A DNA stretch of 64,000 bases, from contig NZ_CP081294.1 in NCBI RefSeq assembly GCF_019711315.1, forward strand, positions 806,001 through 870,000, in the 5' to 3' direction. Positions within the stretch are counted from its first letter, which is position 1. The number at the start of each line of letters is the position of its first letter. The notes under the pieces are model-generated. The model did not search any database and was not told the DNA's origin. It was given only the letters and a program-made list of their open reading frames with translations. Source of the stretch: Qipengyuania gelatinilytica. Lineage in GTDB: Bacteria > Pseudomonadota > Alphaproteobacteria > Sphingomonadales > Sphingomonadaceae. The position numbers were made by a program, and so were the translations under genes. This document shows, piece after piece, positions 3,228 through 61,631 of the stretch.

Positions 3228-3904
3228 GCCTTTCCTGCGCCACCTGCCCGGTTCGCGACCGTGCCGCCTGCGCGGTGCTGAGCGAAGAAGAGCGGGACGA
3301 GCTGGCCCGGGTCGGCCGCACCCGCAAATTGTCGAGGGGCGAAACGCTTTTCTCTGCGGGCGAGAGCGAAGCGGCCTGCGCCACGCTGAAATCCGGCGCG
3401 CTGAAGATCACTTCGACCGATATCGACGGACGCGAACGCATATTGTCGCTCGTTCACCCTTCCGGTTTCATCGGTGAGATGTTCGGTCCCTACATGCGCC
3501 ACGACGTCGTAGCGCTGGGTGATGCGGAGCTGTGCGTTTTCTCCGGCCCCAATTTTGCCGAGGCGGTGAACCGCTTTCCCCGGCTCGGACAGGCGCTCCT
3601 GCGGCGCACGCAGGAAGATCTCTACGCCAGCCGCGAATTGCTCGCGCTCACCGGGAATGCCTCGGCCGAGCAGCGCGTGGCAGGTGCCCTGCTCTCGCTC
3701 GCCCGCGCTGCCAGCGATTCGCCCTGCCATCCGGCCACGAGCTTCGAACTGCCCCTCTCACGCGGCGAACTTGCCGACATGCTGGGCATCACGATCGAAA
3801 CCGTCAGCCGCATGCTCACGCGGTTCGAAAAGGACGGGGCGATCAAGCGCACAGGTAAGCGCGGGATCGATCTGGTCGACCCCGCGCTCTTGCCCCTCTC
3901 CTGA
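3224..3904 (+). CDS. Fnr-type [4Fe-4S] oxygen-sensing transcription regulator (Crp/Fnr family)
   Basis: The 226-residue product has the Crp/Fnr layout: an N-terminal Cys cluster, a beta-roll sensor (about 30-120), a dimer helix and a C-terminal winged helix. Cys5, Cys8 and Cys16 form the CX2CX7C arrangement of alphaproteobacterial FnrL/FnrN. Cys104 aligns with the fourth cluster ligand of E. coli FNR (Cys122). The recognition helix near 191-201 carries E192, S195 and R196, equivalent to the FNR residues that read TTGAT. An oxygen-labile cluster controlling microaerobic genes is inferred. A matching FNR box lies 490 bases away at 4389. Expected partners such as cbb3 oxidase genes are not in this window. 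Confidence 0.88.
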   Translation: MSLSCATCPVRDRAACAVLSEEERDELARVGRTRKLSRGETLFSAGESEAACATLKSGALKITSTDIDGRERILSLVHPSGFIGEMFGPYMRHDVVALGDAELCVFSGPNFAEAVNRFPRLGQALLRRTQEDLYASRELLALTGNASAEQRVAGALLSLARAASDSPCHPATSFELPLSRGELADMLGITIETVSRMLTRFEKDGAIKRTGKRGIDLVDPALLPLS

Positions 3905-3912
3905 GGCTTCTC

Positions 3913-4338
3913 TTAGCGGACCAGTGCCGCGATTGTGATGGTCGCTACGCCCCAGCAGAAGATGATTGCGGGCAGGATGAGCATCTGCACGGCTGCATCC
4001 TTGGCCGAAAGGCGACCCGTCAGCGTCTGGATGCCCTGGCTGCGCAGCTTGGCGAAAGACATCGGCTTCGAGGAGCTTTCCGGCGCGAGCTTCGTCCAGA
4101 TGGCCGGAACACCGAAGGCTGCGACGATGAACAAGGCGAAGATGGTCATCGGAATGATAAGGCCCGGCGACGGGAGGCCGGTAGCCATGACGGCAATGAA
4201 GCCCAGGTAGAGCGCGACCGTTGCACCATAGAGGCCCTTGGGCAGCTCGAACGTGCGATCGGCTTCCTGATGCTTGGCCGGCGCTTCGACGATAACGGCC
4301 TGCTCGGCCACCAGGTCACGGGTAAGATGCTTCGACAT
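3913..4338 (-). CDS. Small membrane protein with an FNR box upstream
   Basis: The 141-residue product has a polar N-terminus of about 35 residues and about three hydrophobic segments (roughly 36-56, 59-80 and 116-138). I recognise no family. It converges on the fnr-like gene, with 8 bases between them. A perfect TTGAT-N4-ATCAA site lies 51-64 bases upstream of its start, placed well for activation at about -41.5. A role in low-oxygen physiology is inferred from that site only. Confidence 0.75.
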   Translation of the reverse strand: MSKHLTRDLVAEQAVIVEAPAKHQEADRTFELPKGLYGATVALYLGFIAVMATGLPSPGLIIPMTIFALFIVAAFGVPAIWTKLAPESSSKPMSFAKLRSQGIQTLTGRLSAKDAAVQMLILPAIIFCWGVATITIAALVR

Positions 4339-4388
4339 GACGATCTCCTTTGTTGGAGCCTTTATGCCGAACCCGCGATCACGCTTCC

Positions 4389-4402
4389 TTGATCGAGATC
4401 AA
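4389..4402 (-). promoter_or_regulatory. FNR box (TTGATCGAGATCAA)
   Basis: This is a perfect palindromic match to the FNR/FixK consensus TTGAT-N4-ATCAA. It lies between the end of moaE and the start of the small membrane protein at 4338. The adjacent regulator has the residues that recognise exactly this half-site. Confidence 0.8.
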
Positions 4403-4412
4403 ACCGGGTAAT

Positions 4413-4880
4413 TTATTGCCATCTGGCGAGGTCATCGTGGTCCTGGCCGCGCGGTTCGATCCAGTGCCATCCGTCATCGCGCCTTTCGCGTTTCCAGAAC
4501 CATGCTGCGGACTTGAGGTGGTCCATGAGATAGTCGGCGGCCTGAAACGCATCGCGCCGGTGGCGTGCTGCCGTGGCGACCAGAACGATCGCCTCGCCCG
4601 GCGTCATCACGCCAACCCGGTGCCAGACCAGGGCGCCATCGAGGGCAAACCTGCTTGCGGCGGTCGTGGCCAATTCCTCCATCCCGGGAAGCGTGAGCGG
4701 TTCGTAATGCGTCAGTTCCAGCGCGCGGACATTGTCCTCGGGACGGACCTTGCCGAGAAAGGAAACCACACCGCCCGCTTCGCCATGCGCCGCGTTGAAT
4801 GCCGCCAAGGCCTCGCCCACCGACATCCCACTGTCGAGAAGGCGGACGTCGAGCGGGCTGGATATGGATAGCCTAGCCAC
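4413..4880 (-). CDS. moaE: Molybdopterin synthase catalytic subunit
   Basis: MoaE joins thiocarboxylated MoaD to make the dithiolene of molybdopterin from cyclic pyranopterin phosphate. The 155-residue protein has the family core, including GKVRPEDN near 43 and the active-site segment KSAAWFWKRE, with Lys123 and Lys130 matching the catalytic lysines. It overlaps moaD by 8 bases. No other molybdopterin biosynthesis gene is in the window. Confidence 0.95.
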   Translation of the reverse strand: MARLSISSPLDVRLLDSGMSVGEALAAFNAAHGEAGGVVSFLGKVRPEDNVRALELTHYEPLTLPGMEELATTAASRFALDGALVWHRVGVMTPGEAIVLVATAARHRRDAFQAADYLMDHLKSAAWFWKRERRDDGWHWIEPRGQDHDDLARWQ

Positions 4881-5115
4881 CGCTCACCGGGGGCAGCAGT
4901 GCAACCTCGTCACCATCTTGCGCCATGAGCGCGCGCTTGTCTGCCAGCACGCGGCCCTTGCAGGCGACATTGACGCGTTCGAGTTCGAGCTGTCCGGCCA
5001 CGTCTGCGCCAACGGCGTCGATCAGGCCCGCCCAATCGACCGGCGCATCGACCTCGCGCTCCGTTGCGCCCGCAAGGTCGGCCAGCGGGCCGAGGAAGAG
5101 AATCGTCACGCTCAT
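4873..5115 (-). CDS. moaD: Molybdopterin synthase sulfur carrier subunit
   Basis: The 80-residue ubiquitin-like protein begins MSVTILFLGPLADL and ends PPVSGG. The terminal Gly-Gly is the site of adenylation and thiocarboxylation, and the protein pairs with MoaE. It overlaps moaE by 8 bases downstream and the upstream unknown ORF by four bases (ATGA), so all three are probably translated together. Confidence 0.95.
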   Translation of the reverse strand: MSVTILFLGPLADLAGATEREVDAPVDWAGLIDAVGADVAGQLELERVNVACKGRVLADKRALMAQDGDEVALLPPVSGG

Positions 5116-21100: not shown

Positions 21101-21241
21101 ATGCTGGATTTTCTGGACGTATTCGAAGCCGTGCCCAATCGCGGCAGGCGGCGGCGCGGTCTATTCAACGCACTTGGCCGCCTGCTCGGCATGGCATTCA
21201 TCGTCCTTTTCCTCGTGATGACGATCTACGCGCTCTGGTAG
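21101..21241 (+). CDS. 46-residue basic single-helix membrane protein
   Basis: The ORF begins MLDFLDVFEAVPNRGRRRRG and then has one hydrophobic helix (about 26-46) ending in ALW. A strong purine-rich ribosome binding site (AAGGGGGAAGGG) lies about 10 bases upstream, which supports translation. It follows ruvX by 18 bases, and its end overlaps the end of the convergent gene by 16 bases. Function unknown. Confidence 0.6.
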   Translation: MLDFLDVFEAVPNRGRRRRGLFNALGRLLGMAFIVLFLVMTIYALW

Positions 21242-22137
21242 GCGCGCTCAATCCTGCGGCGCTTTTCCGCCGCTTCTTTCGCCAGCATGACACTCCCCGA
21301 TAGCTCGGCCTCGCGCCAGAGCTGATCGCGCTCGGACCCGGACAACAGCCCGCTGCGCGCCTCGAAGCTGGCGAGCCGCAGCCGGTCACTCGGATGCTCA
21401 CGGCCTGCCCATTTGGCGAAGTCCAGCGCCTCTTCGCCGCCCATACCCACCGCGCAGCGCAGGAAGCACTCGGTCGACGTTGGATTGAGCACACCGGTCA
21501 CTGCATTGCTGTCCAGATCGAAGCCGTACTGGTCCGACCACGCCTGTGCCGGGTCGATGTGCATGATATTGAGCGATACCGACATGCTTTCGGGCGGCAA
21601 TTGCGAATGGATGTCGAGATTGGCGCGGTAGAGCATCAGCTTGCCCTCCTCCAGCTGCGTGCGTTCGACAAAGCGCAGGTCGCACACCTCGCCGCGATAT
21701 CCGGCGACACTCTCGTAGTCATATTCATAGTAATCGCTGCTGTAGCCCGGCCCGAAATAGCCTGCGGTTAGGAAGCTGAAATTGTGGTCATGCGGCACGC
21801 CGTAGACAAAGGCGTCCGCCCCGCTCGCCCGGAAACAGCTTTCCTGTTCGCTGGGCCAGATATTGGCGCGCAGGAAACTGCGGCCTCGCATGCGCGACAG
21901 CACGATCGACTGGGGGCCGTAAGCACTCTCGATCCCGCCATCCTTGTGACCGACCTTCAATTGCTCGATCAGCAAGTCACTGAGGAAGTCGCGATTGTTG
22001 GCCAGTCGCTTCAACGCGACGGCGCCGTTGGCGAGGCTGCTTTCGTCTTCCGGTTCGAAGGGCACCGCGTCCAGCATTTCGAGGCAGTCCTCCAGGCCAT
22101 GCGCTGCGGTTTCATCGGAAGGGATTATACGGGGCAT
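21226..22137 (-). CDS. Uncharacterised protein with a cupin-like core
   Basis: The 303-residue product is not recognised as a characterised family. The middle has a cupin-like metal-site pattern: YGVPHDHNFSFLTAGYFGPGY (HxH, near 113-133) and, about 60 residues later, ANLDIHSQLPPES with a further His. A Tyr/Asp-rich stretch lies between. The C-terminus from about 215 is helical and charged. It overlaps the upstream unknown gene by 13 bases. A non-heme metal enzyme or a binding protein is inferred. Confidence 0.75.
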   Translation of the reverse strand: MPRIIPSDETAAHGLEDCLEMLDAVPFEPEDESSLANGAVALKRLANNRDFLSDLLIEQLKVGHKDGGIESAYGPQSIVLSRMRGRSFLRANIWPSEQESCFRASGADAFVYGVPHDHNFSFLTAGYFGPGYSSDYYEYDYESVAGYRGEVCDLRFVERTQLEEGKLMLYRANLDIHSQLPPESMSVSLNIMHIDPAQAWSDQYGFDLDSNAVTGVLNPTSTECFLRCAVGMGGEEALDFAKWAGREHPSDRLRLASFEARSGLLSGSERDQLWREAELSGSVMLAKEAAEKRRRIERAYQSA

Positions 22138-23087
22138 TGCGAAACCTCGATTTGAGAGAGTTGGGGGTGCGCCTCGACCAGCTGCGCCATCAGCGCACCG
22201 GCAGGCGTCGCGAGCGGATCGGCAGGATTGCGCGCAATGGCCGAAAGCGCGCCGAAGCCCTCGACCGTATCGAGAGCGAGGCATTCGCGCAGGGTCTGCC
22301 AGCGGATGTGATCGCTGCCTTCCCTGGTAAGCCGCGCAAGAAGCGGGGCGACATCGCTGCGGCCCATTCTGCCTAGAAGAGCCGTCGCCATTTCGCGCTG
22401 GCTTTCCGCGCGGCAGCCGCTTGCACGGTGGAGCAGGCGCCCGTCGGCAAGGCTGTACTGGCGCGTTTCGGGCGGCATTTCTTCGGTGCGAGAAAGCCGC
22501 AGGACAACGAAACGGCCATGCACCTGCCGGATCTGGCGGGTTTGCTTTTCTCCCTCGCAGAGCAAGTATTCGCCGGCCACTGCGCGGCGGGTGCGGCAAT
22601 CGATGGAGGCGCGTCCAGGTGCTTCTGCAAGCAGCTCGAACTCGCAGATGTCCGCCGATCCTGCGAGGACCGCCTCGTGACGCTCGCCTCCGGCAAAACA
22701 TACCGAGGTCGGATCGACTTCCGTTTCCTCGTATGTGATCAGCGACAAGGCAGCGCGCCCGCGCTGGGCGATCTGCAGGACCGACAAGCCATCCTTGTAC
22801 TGATGCCGCAGCGGGACCTGCCCGAGCGGGTGCGCCCTTACCTCGTCCAGCAGCGAAGCCATCAGGGCCTCGATCAATGCGCTCGCCGTCCCGGGCTCTG
22901 CGAAGAGCCCGGACAGCGCAGGATAATCAGCAAGATCGCCCTTGCGGCCATAGCTCTCCAGCTGCTCGAGCACGCTGCGCGCCGGACCATGGGCCCACGC
23001 ATCGCGCGCCGCTTCGAGCGCGATCTGCGCCTTGCGCTGCGGAGCAGTGTCGCTCCGCAGCGCGCGCAATTGCGGGTCGATTCTCAT
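22125..23087 (-). CDS. Uncharacterised protein, cupin-like middle and helical-repeat C-terminus
   Basis: The 320-residue product has a helical N-terminus, a beta-rich middle with SVCFAGGERHEAVLAG near residue 130, and a C-terminal helical part (about 225-310) that reads like two or three HEAT-type repeats. Its layout resembles the downstream 303-residue protein, and the two may be distant paralogues. The start lies 16 bases after the peptide gene. No function is recognised. Confidence 0.75.
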   Translation of the reverse strand: MRIDPQLRALRSDTAPQRKAQIALEAARDAWAHGPARSVLEQLESYGRKGDLADYPALSGLFAEPGTASALIEALMASLLDEVRAHPLGQVPLRHQYKDGLSVLQIAQRGRAALSLITYEETEVDPTSVCFAGGERHEAVLAGSADICEFELLAEAPGRASIDCRTRRAVAGEYLLCEGEKQTRQIRQVHGRFVVLRLSRTEEMPPETRQYSLADGRLLHRASGCRAESQREMATALLGRMGRSDVAPLLARLTREGSDHIRWQTLRECLALDTVEGFGALSAIARNPADPLATPAGALMAQLVEAHPQLSQIEVSQCPV

Positions 23088-23103
23088 CGTTCCGCGTTCC
23101 CGG

Positions 23104-23265
23104 TCACAGCAGCGCTTCGGGCGGAGCGACTTCGTAGATGTAGGTCATGATCACGACCACGCGGTCATCCACGGTCGGGCCTTCGGACGCCGACAAGGTA
23201 CCGAACAGGCCGGTCAAAGTGTCGAGGTCGGGCAGGCTCGAAAGATCGATCTTGGGTAGGTTCAT
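23104..23265 (-). CDS. 53-residue peptide heading the cupin-like operon
   Basis: The product has an amphipathic acidic N-terminal half (MNLPKIDLSSLPDLDTLTG) and a hydrophobic strand-like segment (VVVIMTYIYE) near the C-terminus, with no Cys and no signal peptide. CAGGAGG lies 8 bases upstream of the ATG, a far better ribosome binding site than its two downstream neighbours have. High translation relative to the neighbours is inferred. It may be a modified-peptide precursor or a small regulatory subunit; neither is shown. Confidence 0.72.
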   Translation of the reverse strand: MNLPKIDLSSLPDLDTLTGLFGTLSASEGPTVDDRVVVIMTYIYEVAPPEALL

Positions 23266-23399
23266 TAGGTAATCCTCCTGATTGTGGGAGGCGCGACCCG
23301 GTGTCACGCTCCGGCAAGGAGGCTGGCGGCTTGTTGCCACGCGATCGAATTAAAACATTGTAATCGTCGGGAACCGGACGCTATCGGCGGCTCTCCACT

Positions 23400-23861
23400 A
23401 TGACCGATCAACCCTCCTTCGATCCCAGGACGGCGACGCCGTTCCTCACCAGCCGCGGACATTCCGGATGGCTTGGCCTGCGCTATTCCGACCATGGCGA
23501 CGACTGGGTCGAACTCGAGCTCCCCTGGCGCGAAGACCTGCTGGGTGAAGACGGGCAGCGCGTACTCGCCTCCGGGCCGATCCTCAGCCTGATGGACATG
23601 GCCAGCGGGCTCGCGATCTGGAAGGCGATGGACCGGTTCGAGCCGATCGCAACGCTCGACTTGCGCGTCGATTACGTGCGCCCGGCGCGCGAGGGATCGC
23701 CGGTATTCGGACGCTCGCAATGCTATCGCGTCACCCGCTCTGCTGCCTTCGTGCGCGGACTTGCGCATGATGGCGACGCGAGCGACCCGGTCGCCCATAT
23801 CCAGGCGGTTTTCATGAAAATCGGGCAGTCGGCCGACAAGCGGGAGCTGCCCGGTGAGTGA
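23400..23861 (+). CDS. PaaI-type hotdog thioesterase
   Basis: The 153-residue product fits the PaaI/YigI thioesterase family: a single hotdog domain with DMASGLAIWKAMD (the family helix, near 64) and TLDLRVDYVRPA. It would hydrolyse an acyl-CoA, probably aromatic or medium chain. It overlaps a second hotdog gene by 8 bases, so the two may form a hetero-oligomer. Divergent from the peptide/cupin operon. Confidence 0.85.
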   Translation: MTDQPSFDPRTATPFLTSRGHSGWLGLRYSDHGDDWVELELPWREDLLGEDGQRVLASGPILSLMDMASGLAIWKAMDRFEPIATLDLRVDYVRPAREGSPVFGRSQCYRVTRSAAFVRGLAHDGDASDPVAHIQAVFMKIGQSADKRELPGE

Positions 23862-24267
23862 TCGAGGCAATCCCGACGCGCTGACGCCCTATGCCCGCTC
23901 GCTCGGCATCGAGATTTCGGGCACGGAAGACGGTGTCCCGGTGATGTGTGTCGCCTTCGAAGAGGCTGTCGAGGGCCGGCCCGAACACTATCACGGCGGC
24001 GCCACCGGCGGATTACTCGAAACGGCAGGCTATGCCGCCCTGAGGGCCGAGCTTGCCGAACGCGGGCGCGAGGCACTGCTCAAGCCGATCAATATCACGG
24101 TGCAGTATCTGTCCGCCGGCAAGAGCCGGACCAGCTATGCCAAGGGACGTGTGACCAAGCTTGGCCGTCGCAGTGCCAATCTGACGGTCGAGGCATGGCA
24201 GGACGACCGAACGCGACCGATCGCTACTGCCGTGATGAACGTGCTGGTCGCCGACCCTAAGGATTAG
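23854..24267 (+). CDS. PaaI-type hotdog thioesterase (second copy)
   Basis: The 137-residue product has HYHGGATGGLLETAGYAAL (the hotdog catalytic helix region) and KPINITVQYLSAGK, matching the PaaI family. It is only weakly similar to its neighbour, so this is an old or independent pair, not a recent duplication. It ends 3 bases before the convergent penicillin-binding protein gene. Confidence 0.85.
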   Translation: MSDRGNPDALTPYARSLGIEISGTEDGVPVMCVAFEEAVEGRPEHYHGGATGGLLETAGYAALRAELAERGREALLKPINITVQYLSAGKSRTSYAKGRVTKLGRRSANLTVEAWQDDRTRPIATAVMNVLVADPKD

Positions 24268-61555: not shown

Positions 61556-61631
61556 GCCCGGGTAGCTCAGTTGGTAGAGCATGCGACTGAAAATCGCAGT
61601 GTCGGCGGTTCGAATCCGTCCCCGGGCACCA
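61556..61631 (+). tRNA. tRNA-Phe (GAA)
   Basis: The 76-base sequence folds as a cloverleaf: a 7-bp acceptor stem (GCCCGGG with CCCGGGC), anticodon GAA in the CTGAAAAT loop, a TTCGAAT T-loop, and an encoded CCA end. No integrase or duplicated end is seen next to it. Confidence 0.96.

Follow-up and report, generated by a model that had tools for sequence, protein, structure and literature searches.

Why should a short peptide be encoded directly ahead of two overlapping, cupin-like genes? The question is raised by a three-gene locus in a 64,000-nucleotide (nt) stretch of the Qipengyuania gelatinilytica genome (contig NZ_CP081294.1, positions 806,001 to 870,000; hereafter, the window), whose genes we denoted P1 (the peptide), P2, and P3. 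A first-pass annotation of this DNA had delineated these open reading frames (ORFs) and suggested a ribosomally made, modified peptide. All three ORFs are confirmed on the minus strand (Table 1), the best ribosome binding site among the three starts, judged by eye, is that of P1 as that annotation had held, and the two large genes indeed overlap, by 13 nt; the gap between P1 and P2 is 16 nt. Each of the three has a single match in its own 2.83-Mb genome. We favor, with moderate confidence, the reading that the locus is a system akin to those for ribosomally synthesized and post-translationally modified peptides (RiPPs), with P1 as a peptide that is bound and oxidized by P2 and P3. We do so because the peptide is linked to a predicted three-histidine (3-His) oxygenase and a metal-less homologue of it, because its sequence changes between distant loci, and because an exporter cluster and multiple peptides are shared by two distant organisms.

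A scan of GTDB genomes yielded 250 loci with a P3 relative, 80 of which were kept for a co-occurrence count. In 79 of the 80, tblastn detected both P1 and P2 beside P3; the exception (L055) lies at a contig end, with the locus starting inside P3, and two loci, L028 and L092, gave only a partial best match for P3 or P2. The first-pass annotation had named such co-occurrence as support for its proposal and absence of the peptide from orthologous loci as grounds against it; the peptide is there in the same 79 loci. Together with the low ratio of nonsynonymous to synonymous differences per site in P1 (pN/pS, 0.16), this indicates that the locus is more than a chance arrangement. Within the window's family, 55 of 149 genomes carry P3; a sample of the class gave 5 of 385 (four of them from that family), and a sample of the phylum gave 15 of 398 (13 from that family). 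The closest named related loci are those of Qipengyuania and Erythrobacter, and the chromosomal site is the same among the loci compared. Ten family members were picked for a strong match to the neighboring thioesterase TE1 without P3 and then inspected at this site, and none of P1 to P3 was found at any of the 10; in the eight where RuvX lay within the stretch, the spacing between RuvX and TE1 was 17-145 nt, as measured by alignment ends. It is therefore P1-P2-P3 that comes and goes as a unit.

P3 is confidently predicted to be a cupin of the thiol dioxygenase type with an HxH...H triad. In the structural model, the cupin fold spans about residues 8-219 and is followed by a helical C-terminus, and the top Foldseek matches are small-molecule thiol dioxygenases with a 3-His site. 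P3 shares with these enzymes (cysteine, 3-mercaptopropionate, and mercaptosuccinate dioxygenases and PCO/ADO) the type of cupin fold, an HxH motif, and a later His; with these three invariant histidines as predicted metal ligands, it is probably a 3-His iron enzyme. Its HDH and VSL motifs are in register with those of two CDO_I relatives and its later His falls near theirs, in a profile comparison of only 4% probability (0.7% for P2 and 1.9% for the distant P3s). P3 differs from the thiol dioxygenases in the helical C-terminus and in its lack of a match to PF05995 (CDO_I), which was absent at E<=1 for P3 and at E<=0.1 for 48 relatives, and the unit adds a homologous metal-less partner gene and a peptide gene.

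That partner is P2, which is homologous to P3 (profile match, E 4.6e-8). The P2 model (predicted local distance difference test score, 92.8) matches cupins, its C-terminus matches alphaRep/HEAT proteins, and no alignment column in 43 sequences has His in more than 60%. P2 is therefore probably a pseudoenzyme partner of P3. The first-pass annotation had seen cupin-like HxH or His-rich cores in both proteins and two possible metal enzymes or binders; the cupin fold holds for both, while the conserved HxH belongs to P3, leaving one probable metal enzyme and one homologous partner without a metal site. The helical C-termini that it had described were recovered in both.

P1 was aligned across 100 peptides, 90 of them distinct and the window's own counted twice. 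Its N-terminal part is conserved (like MNLPKIDLSSLPDLDTLTGLFGS) and is followed by a linker that varies, a hydrophobic core (like DDRIVVIMVYVYD/E), and a tail that also varies and often contains PP. A [LIV]P-x-[LIF] motif lies within residues 8-24 of 98 of the 100; a looser count that gave 100 of 100 also took in LPKI at the peptide start. The peptides are acidic, with a mean net charge of about -5. P1 is under purifying selection: in 28 close, non-independent pairs, pS was 0.32 and pN 0.051. By segment, pN/pS was lowest in the core (0.087), the most constrained part, followed by the leader (0.127), the linker (0.217), and the tail (0.342). P1 is thus a real product.

Table 1. Positions of the P1-P2-P3 genes and their parts in the window (aa, amino acids)
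Feature	Position	Strand	Description	Basis
P1	23104..23265	minus	53 aa; conserved peptide, candidate precursor/substrate	sequence, co-occurrence, pN/pS
P2	22125..23087	minus	320 aa; degenerate cupin with HEAT-like C-terminus; P3 homologue; probable pseudoenzyme/peptide-binding partner	
P3	21226..22137	minus	303 aa; cupin of the thiol dioxygenase fold, C-terminus helical; probably a 3-His iron enzyme	
Shine-Dalgarno-like AGGAGG	23274..23279	minus	precedes the P1 ATG	sequence
P1 leader-like N-terminal part	23194..23265	minus	residues 1-24, MNLPKIDLSSLPDLDTLTGLFGTL	alignment of 100 peptides
P1 hydrophobic core	23131..23169	minus	residues 33-45, DDRVVVIMTYIYE	lowest pN/pS segment; alignment
P3 H116-D-H118	21784..21792	minus	predicted metal ligands	both His invariant, 48/48 rows (47 distinct)
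P3 H177	21607..21609	minus	third predicted metal ligand	invariant, 48/48 rows (47 distinct)

The distant versions of the locus, drawn from other genomes of the window's family, class, and phylum, often keep a V/I-rich peptide end in otherwise divergent sequences. Within near relatives, the core is the more constrained part. In 16 of 23 loci tested (one of which, L136, lies near the window's lineage), the best short ORF that terminates near the P2 start has an end rich in V/I/L/M/F at an empirical p<0.1. The combined p of 2e-15 is an overstatement because the controls were taken from overlapping windows and individual p values had a lower bound of 0.001. A P1-like ORF was recognized by profile in L123 (E 1.3e-11), L132 (E 1.6e-5), L137 (E 7.7e-5), and L127 (E 0.00075) and weakly in L133 (E 0.029). 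From 18 loci, we hand-picked 21 distant peptides, all ATG-to-stop ORFs, leaving out L118, L127, L133, L137, L140, and L158; the choice of peptide is doubtful for L118, L140, and L158 (in the last, an ORF of 33 aa whose end is hydrophobic). In L118-L121, P2 was recognized from its position, its profile score not being significant. Among the hand-picked peptides, 13 have [LIV]P-x-[LIM] near the N-terminus and 8 contain Cys, which in 7 cases lies close to where the hydrophobic stretch begins (for example, GGVC, GGPLC, GAAC, and GGSVC).

In some of these distant loci, P2 and P3 are embedded in exporter clusters, with HlyD/MacB genes present in L157, L165, and L166. The Alteromonas stellipolaris plasmid pASTE61-200 (CP013927.1) carries, in this order, Yip1, HlyD, ABC ATPase, MacB permease, two small ORFs, P2, P3, ABC ATPase, and ABC-2 permease. 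The same order, with three tandem peptides before P2 and P3, is found in G1156 (locus L165), from another class of the phylum, where P3 is followed by an ABC ATPase and then by a gene whose ABC-2 match falls below threshold. The tandem peptides occupy 4798-4926, 4935-5087, and 5140-5298 of L165, the second and third being clear paralogues. G1225, from the same family as G1156, has genes for HlyD, an ABC ATPase, and a MacB permease ahead of P2-P3 in divergent orientation, and a peptide comes after P3. The proposal of a modified peptide, made in the first-pass annotation, gains support from these divergent peptides with V/I-rich ends, the HlyD/MacB genes, and the presence of several peptides beside P2-P3.

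In the mechanism that we propose, P1-P2-P3 would be a self-contained RiPP-type unit, present or absent as a block, with P1 as the precursor. The P2/P3 pair would grip the acidic/hydrophobic N-terminal part of P1 (LPxLD region), while the V/I/Y-rich segment at its C-terminal side would serve as substrate. As a 3-His cupin whose metal is presumably Fe(II), P3 would perform O2-dependent oxidation of the peptide; P2, without metal ligands, could act as a scaffold or peptide-binding partner, and the helical C-termini of both may contact the peptide or one another. Export of the products is probable in those relatives that have HlyD/MacB genes. In the window's lineage, the product may remain intracellular or in the membrane, or may leave through an exporter encoded elsewhere, considering that no adjacent exporter or protease was seen and that the core is strongly conserved. 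We also put forward, more tentatively and with slightly less than even confidence, that a thiol-dioxygenase-fold 3-His iron enzyme and its metal-less homologue, oxidizing aliphatic or aromatic residues of a mostly Cys-free hydrophobic peptide, might form a new class of RiPP tailoring enzymes in alphaproteobacteria and beyond (Alteromonas, Vibrio), hidden under the names "transposase" and "hypothetical protein."

Several observations weigh against this interpretation. The lower Foldseek matches of P3 include other cupins, among which are JmjC-type ribosomal oxygenases and a dimethylsulfoniopropionate lyase. Thiol dioxygenases possess a Ser-His-Tyr triad; in the low-probability alignment, SVSLNIM of P3 is matched to AVSLHVY of a CDO_I relative, placing N190 and M192 of P3 at the His and Tyr positions, so that the triad is not seen. 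The window's P1 lacks Cys, as the first-pass annotation correctly stated, and only 1 of the 100 near peptides contains it; therefore, a reaction at a thiol cannot be general. The core of P1 is more conserved than the leader, unlike in a typical, fast-evolving antimicrobial RiPP. Among the distant loci, the V/I-rich ORF is non-significant in 7 of the 23 (L118, L123, L127, L132, L133, L140, and L157), and of the 16 positive ones, L137 is doubtful, its scoring ORF resembling the end of an unrelated enzyme gene. Finally, no protease or exporter was found among the six flanking genes tested in the window, and Peptidase_C39 is absent from the whole genome. A linked peptidase or exporter is common in RiPP systems and is not obligatory.

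The main rival explanation casts P2-P3 as a dioxygenase of small molecules, to which P1 would contribute as a small subunit with a regulatory or structural role, such as a beta-strand completing the pair or a membrane tether. The identity of the best Foldseek matches, the hydrophobic nature of the most conserved part of P1, and the lack of an export gene among the six flanking genes all fit such an enzyme. We nevertheless regard it as rather unlikely, considering that P1 is strongly divergent in distant loci, with three tandem peptides in one locus and two in another, a pattern that suits substrates better than a fixed subunit, and that HlyD/MacB genes adjoin distant P2-P3. Less probable still is a membrane-active, bacteriocin- or toxin-like P1, with P2 and P3 not modifying it but providing silencing, immunity, or repair. 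Its hydrophobic core, the tandem peptides and ABC systems of the relatives, and the patchy presence across the family speak for such a peptide; the strict catalytic-type triad of P3, purifying selection on P1, and the same chromosomal site in the loci compared speak against it.

The neighborhood also invites a link to acyl metabolism, in which the unit would work with the divergent pair of 4HBT thioesterases at 23400-24267 and P1 would be merely a linked small protein. Of 100 loci, 94 had at least 1.8 kb of sequence ahead of P2 and were retained, and the pair adjoins P1 in 76 of these. It is missing beside the other 18, it stands beside RuvX without P1-P3 at 8 of the 10 P3-less sites, and TE1 is matched in 109 of 149 family genomes, a count that includes weak paralogues, compared with 55 for P3, which makes such a partnership highly improbable. 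Even the shortness of P1 and its lack of a family match, which could point to a chance ORF preceding a two-gene enzyme operon, carry next to no weight: the pN/pS, the occurrence in 79 loci, and the strong ribosome binding site contradict this explanation, and we give it practically no credence.

In comparison with known systems, the RiPP-type reading finds parallels of several kinds. Some RiPP systems, such as those with pyrroloquinoline quinone (PQQ) or mycofactocin precursors, have a conserved core; the unit resembles them in its short precursor-like gene, putative partner and oxidative enzyme, and constrained core and differs in the enzyme fold and in the absence of a known RiPP enzyme family or of an adjacent protease. 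Peptide bacteriocins are exported by MacB-type or ABC systems, and the relatives L157, L165, and L166, with HlyD/MacB genes and hydrophobic small peptides, are reminiscent of these, whereas the window's unit has no exporter among its six flanking genes and its P1 is acidic and conserved. Nearest in spirit are the MNIO (DUF692) clusters, in which an iron oxidase and a partner act on a precursor; one report describes such a RiPP cluster with a cupin-like hydroxylase, PbsQ, related to the JmjC protein BpmG (PMC12257519). P3 and 48 of its relatives have no DUF692 or JmjC match in Pfam, and the best fold matches are 3-His thiol dioxygenases. If P3 modifies P1, thiol-dioxygenase-type cupins would join the enzymes known to act on RiPPs, and they would do so as a catalytic/pseudoenzyme pair whose peptides are mostly free of Cys.

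Pfam and NCBIfam searches gave no match above cut-off for P1, P2, or P3, so neither large protein could be assigned to a named family, as the first-pass annotation had also found, and no known non-peptide family emerged for them. Among 48 P3 relatives, HEAT_2 was matched by 6 at E<=0.1 (best, 0.00091), with no other informative Pfam match; HEAT_2 also reached the cut-off in C-terminal repeats of some distant P2s (L140, L157, and L165). NCBIfam returned nothing for 12 distant P3s and 7 peptides, and sequence comparison of P3 with solved structures gave nothing better than E 0.023, its few weak matches being to the alpha subunit of the transcription factor TFIIF and to a response regulator. A protein database search at E<=0.001 retrieved 3396 relatives of P3 and at least 539 of P2. 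Among the matches listed, NCBI names the P3 relatives "transposase," except for one "hypothetical protein." We rejected a transposase identity for P3, and the label on its homologues (P0004, P0007, P0022, P0032, and others) looks like a propagated misannotation, because the fold is that of a cupin, the site is the same in relatives, and no transposase family is matched in Pfam or NCBIfam. The unit is tiny and widespread, and its recognition would also correct a recurrent error. No phage match was obtained with the P3 of L120 as query, and full-text searches of the open-access literature (subscription papers and preprints being outside their scope) found no description of a P1-P2-P3 unit.

Shortened forms of P2-P3 occur in L167 (5440-6857) and L169 (2831-4248) and on a Vibrio plasmid. 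Those of L167 and L169 (228 and 244 aa) seem to lack the helical C-terminus, and L167 has a longer P2-P3 pair starting 0.9 kb downstream. In the family of G1156, P3 is found in 6 of 149 genomes, in two of them only or also as the short form. The Alteromonas cluster (L157, CP013927.1 60122-76904) has two ABC systems and is annotated as hypothetical or macrolide transporter, and in L165 the three tandem peptide genes, of which the two paralogues have GGVC and glycine-rich hydrophobic ends, lie between the MacB genes and P2-P3. L123 encodes a 90-aa ORF starting MRELTSAEIAMVSGG, 3662-3934 nt after the P3 ORF start, with a bacteriocin-like double-glycine leader by eye. Beside P2-P3 of L140 (G1049) are a Cupin_8/JmjC-like gene (3573-4520, plus strand) and a 50-aa ORF (4650-4802, minus strand) with a double-glycine-like leader, LDDVSIAGAD, again by eye. 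yidC lies directly before the peptide in L122 and directly after P3 in L125; a YidC link was discarded, as BLAST of neighboring ORFs gave just these two loci and tblastn with the L122 protein found none in L001-L101.

In the window, the two genes of the 4HBT thioesterase superfamily overlap (23400-23861 and 23854-24267, plus strand) and are divergent from P1; considered as partners of P1-P3, they were judged to be bystanders. Promoter and terminator scans gave nothing above shuffled controls, and the Rfam scan detected one tRNA, at 61556. A 46-aa ORF with a hydrophobic end (21101-21241, plus strand) is convergent with P3, overlapping its 3' end by 16 nt, and is present in 1 of 16 loci compared (L022).
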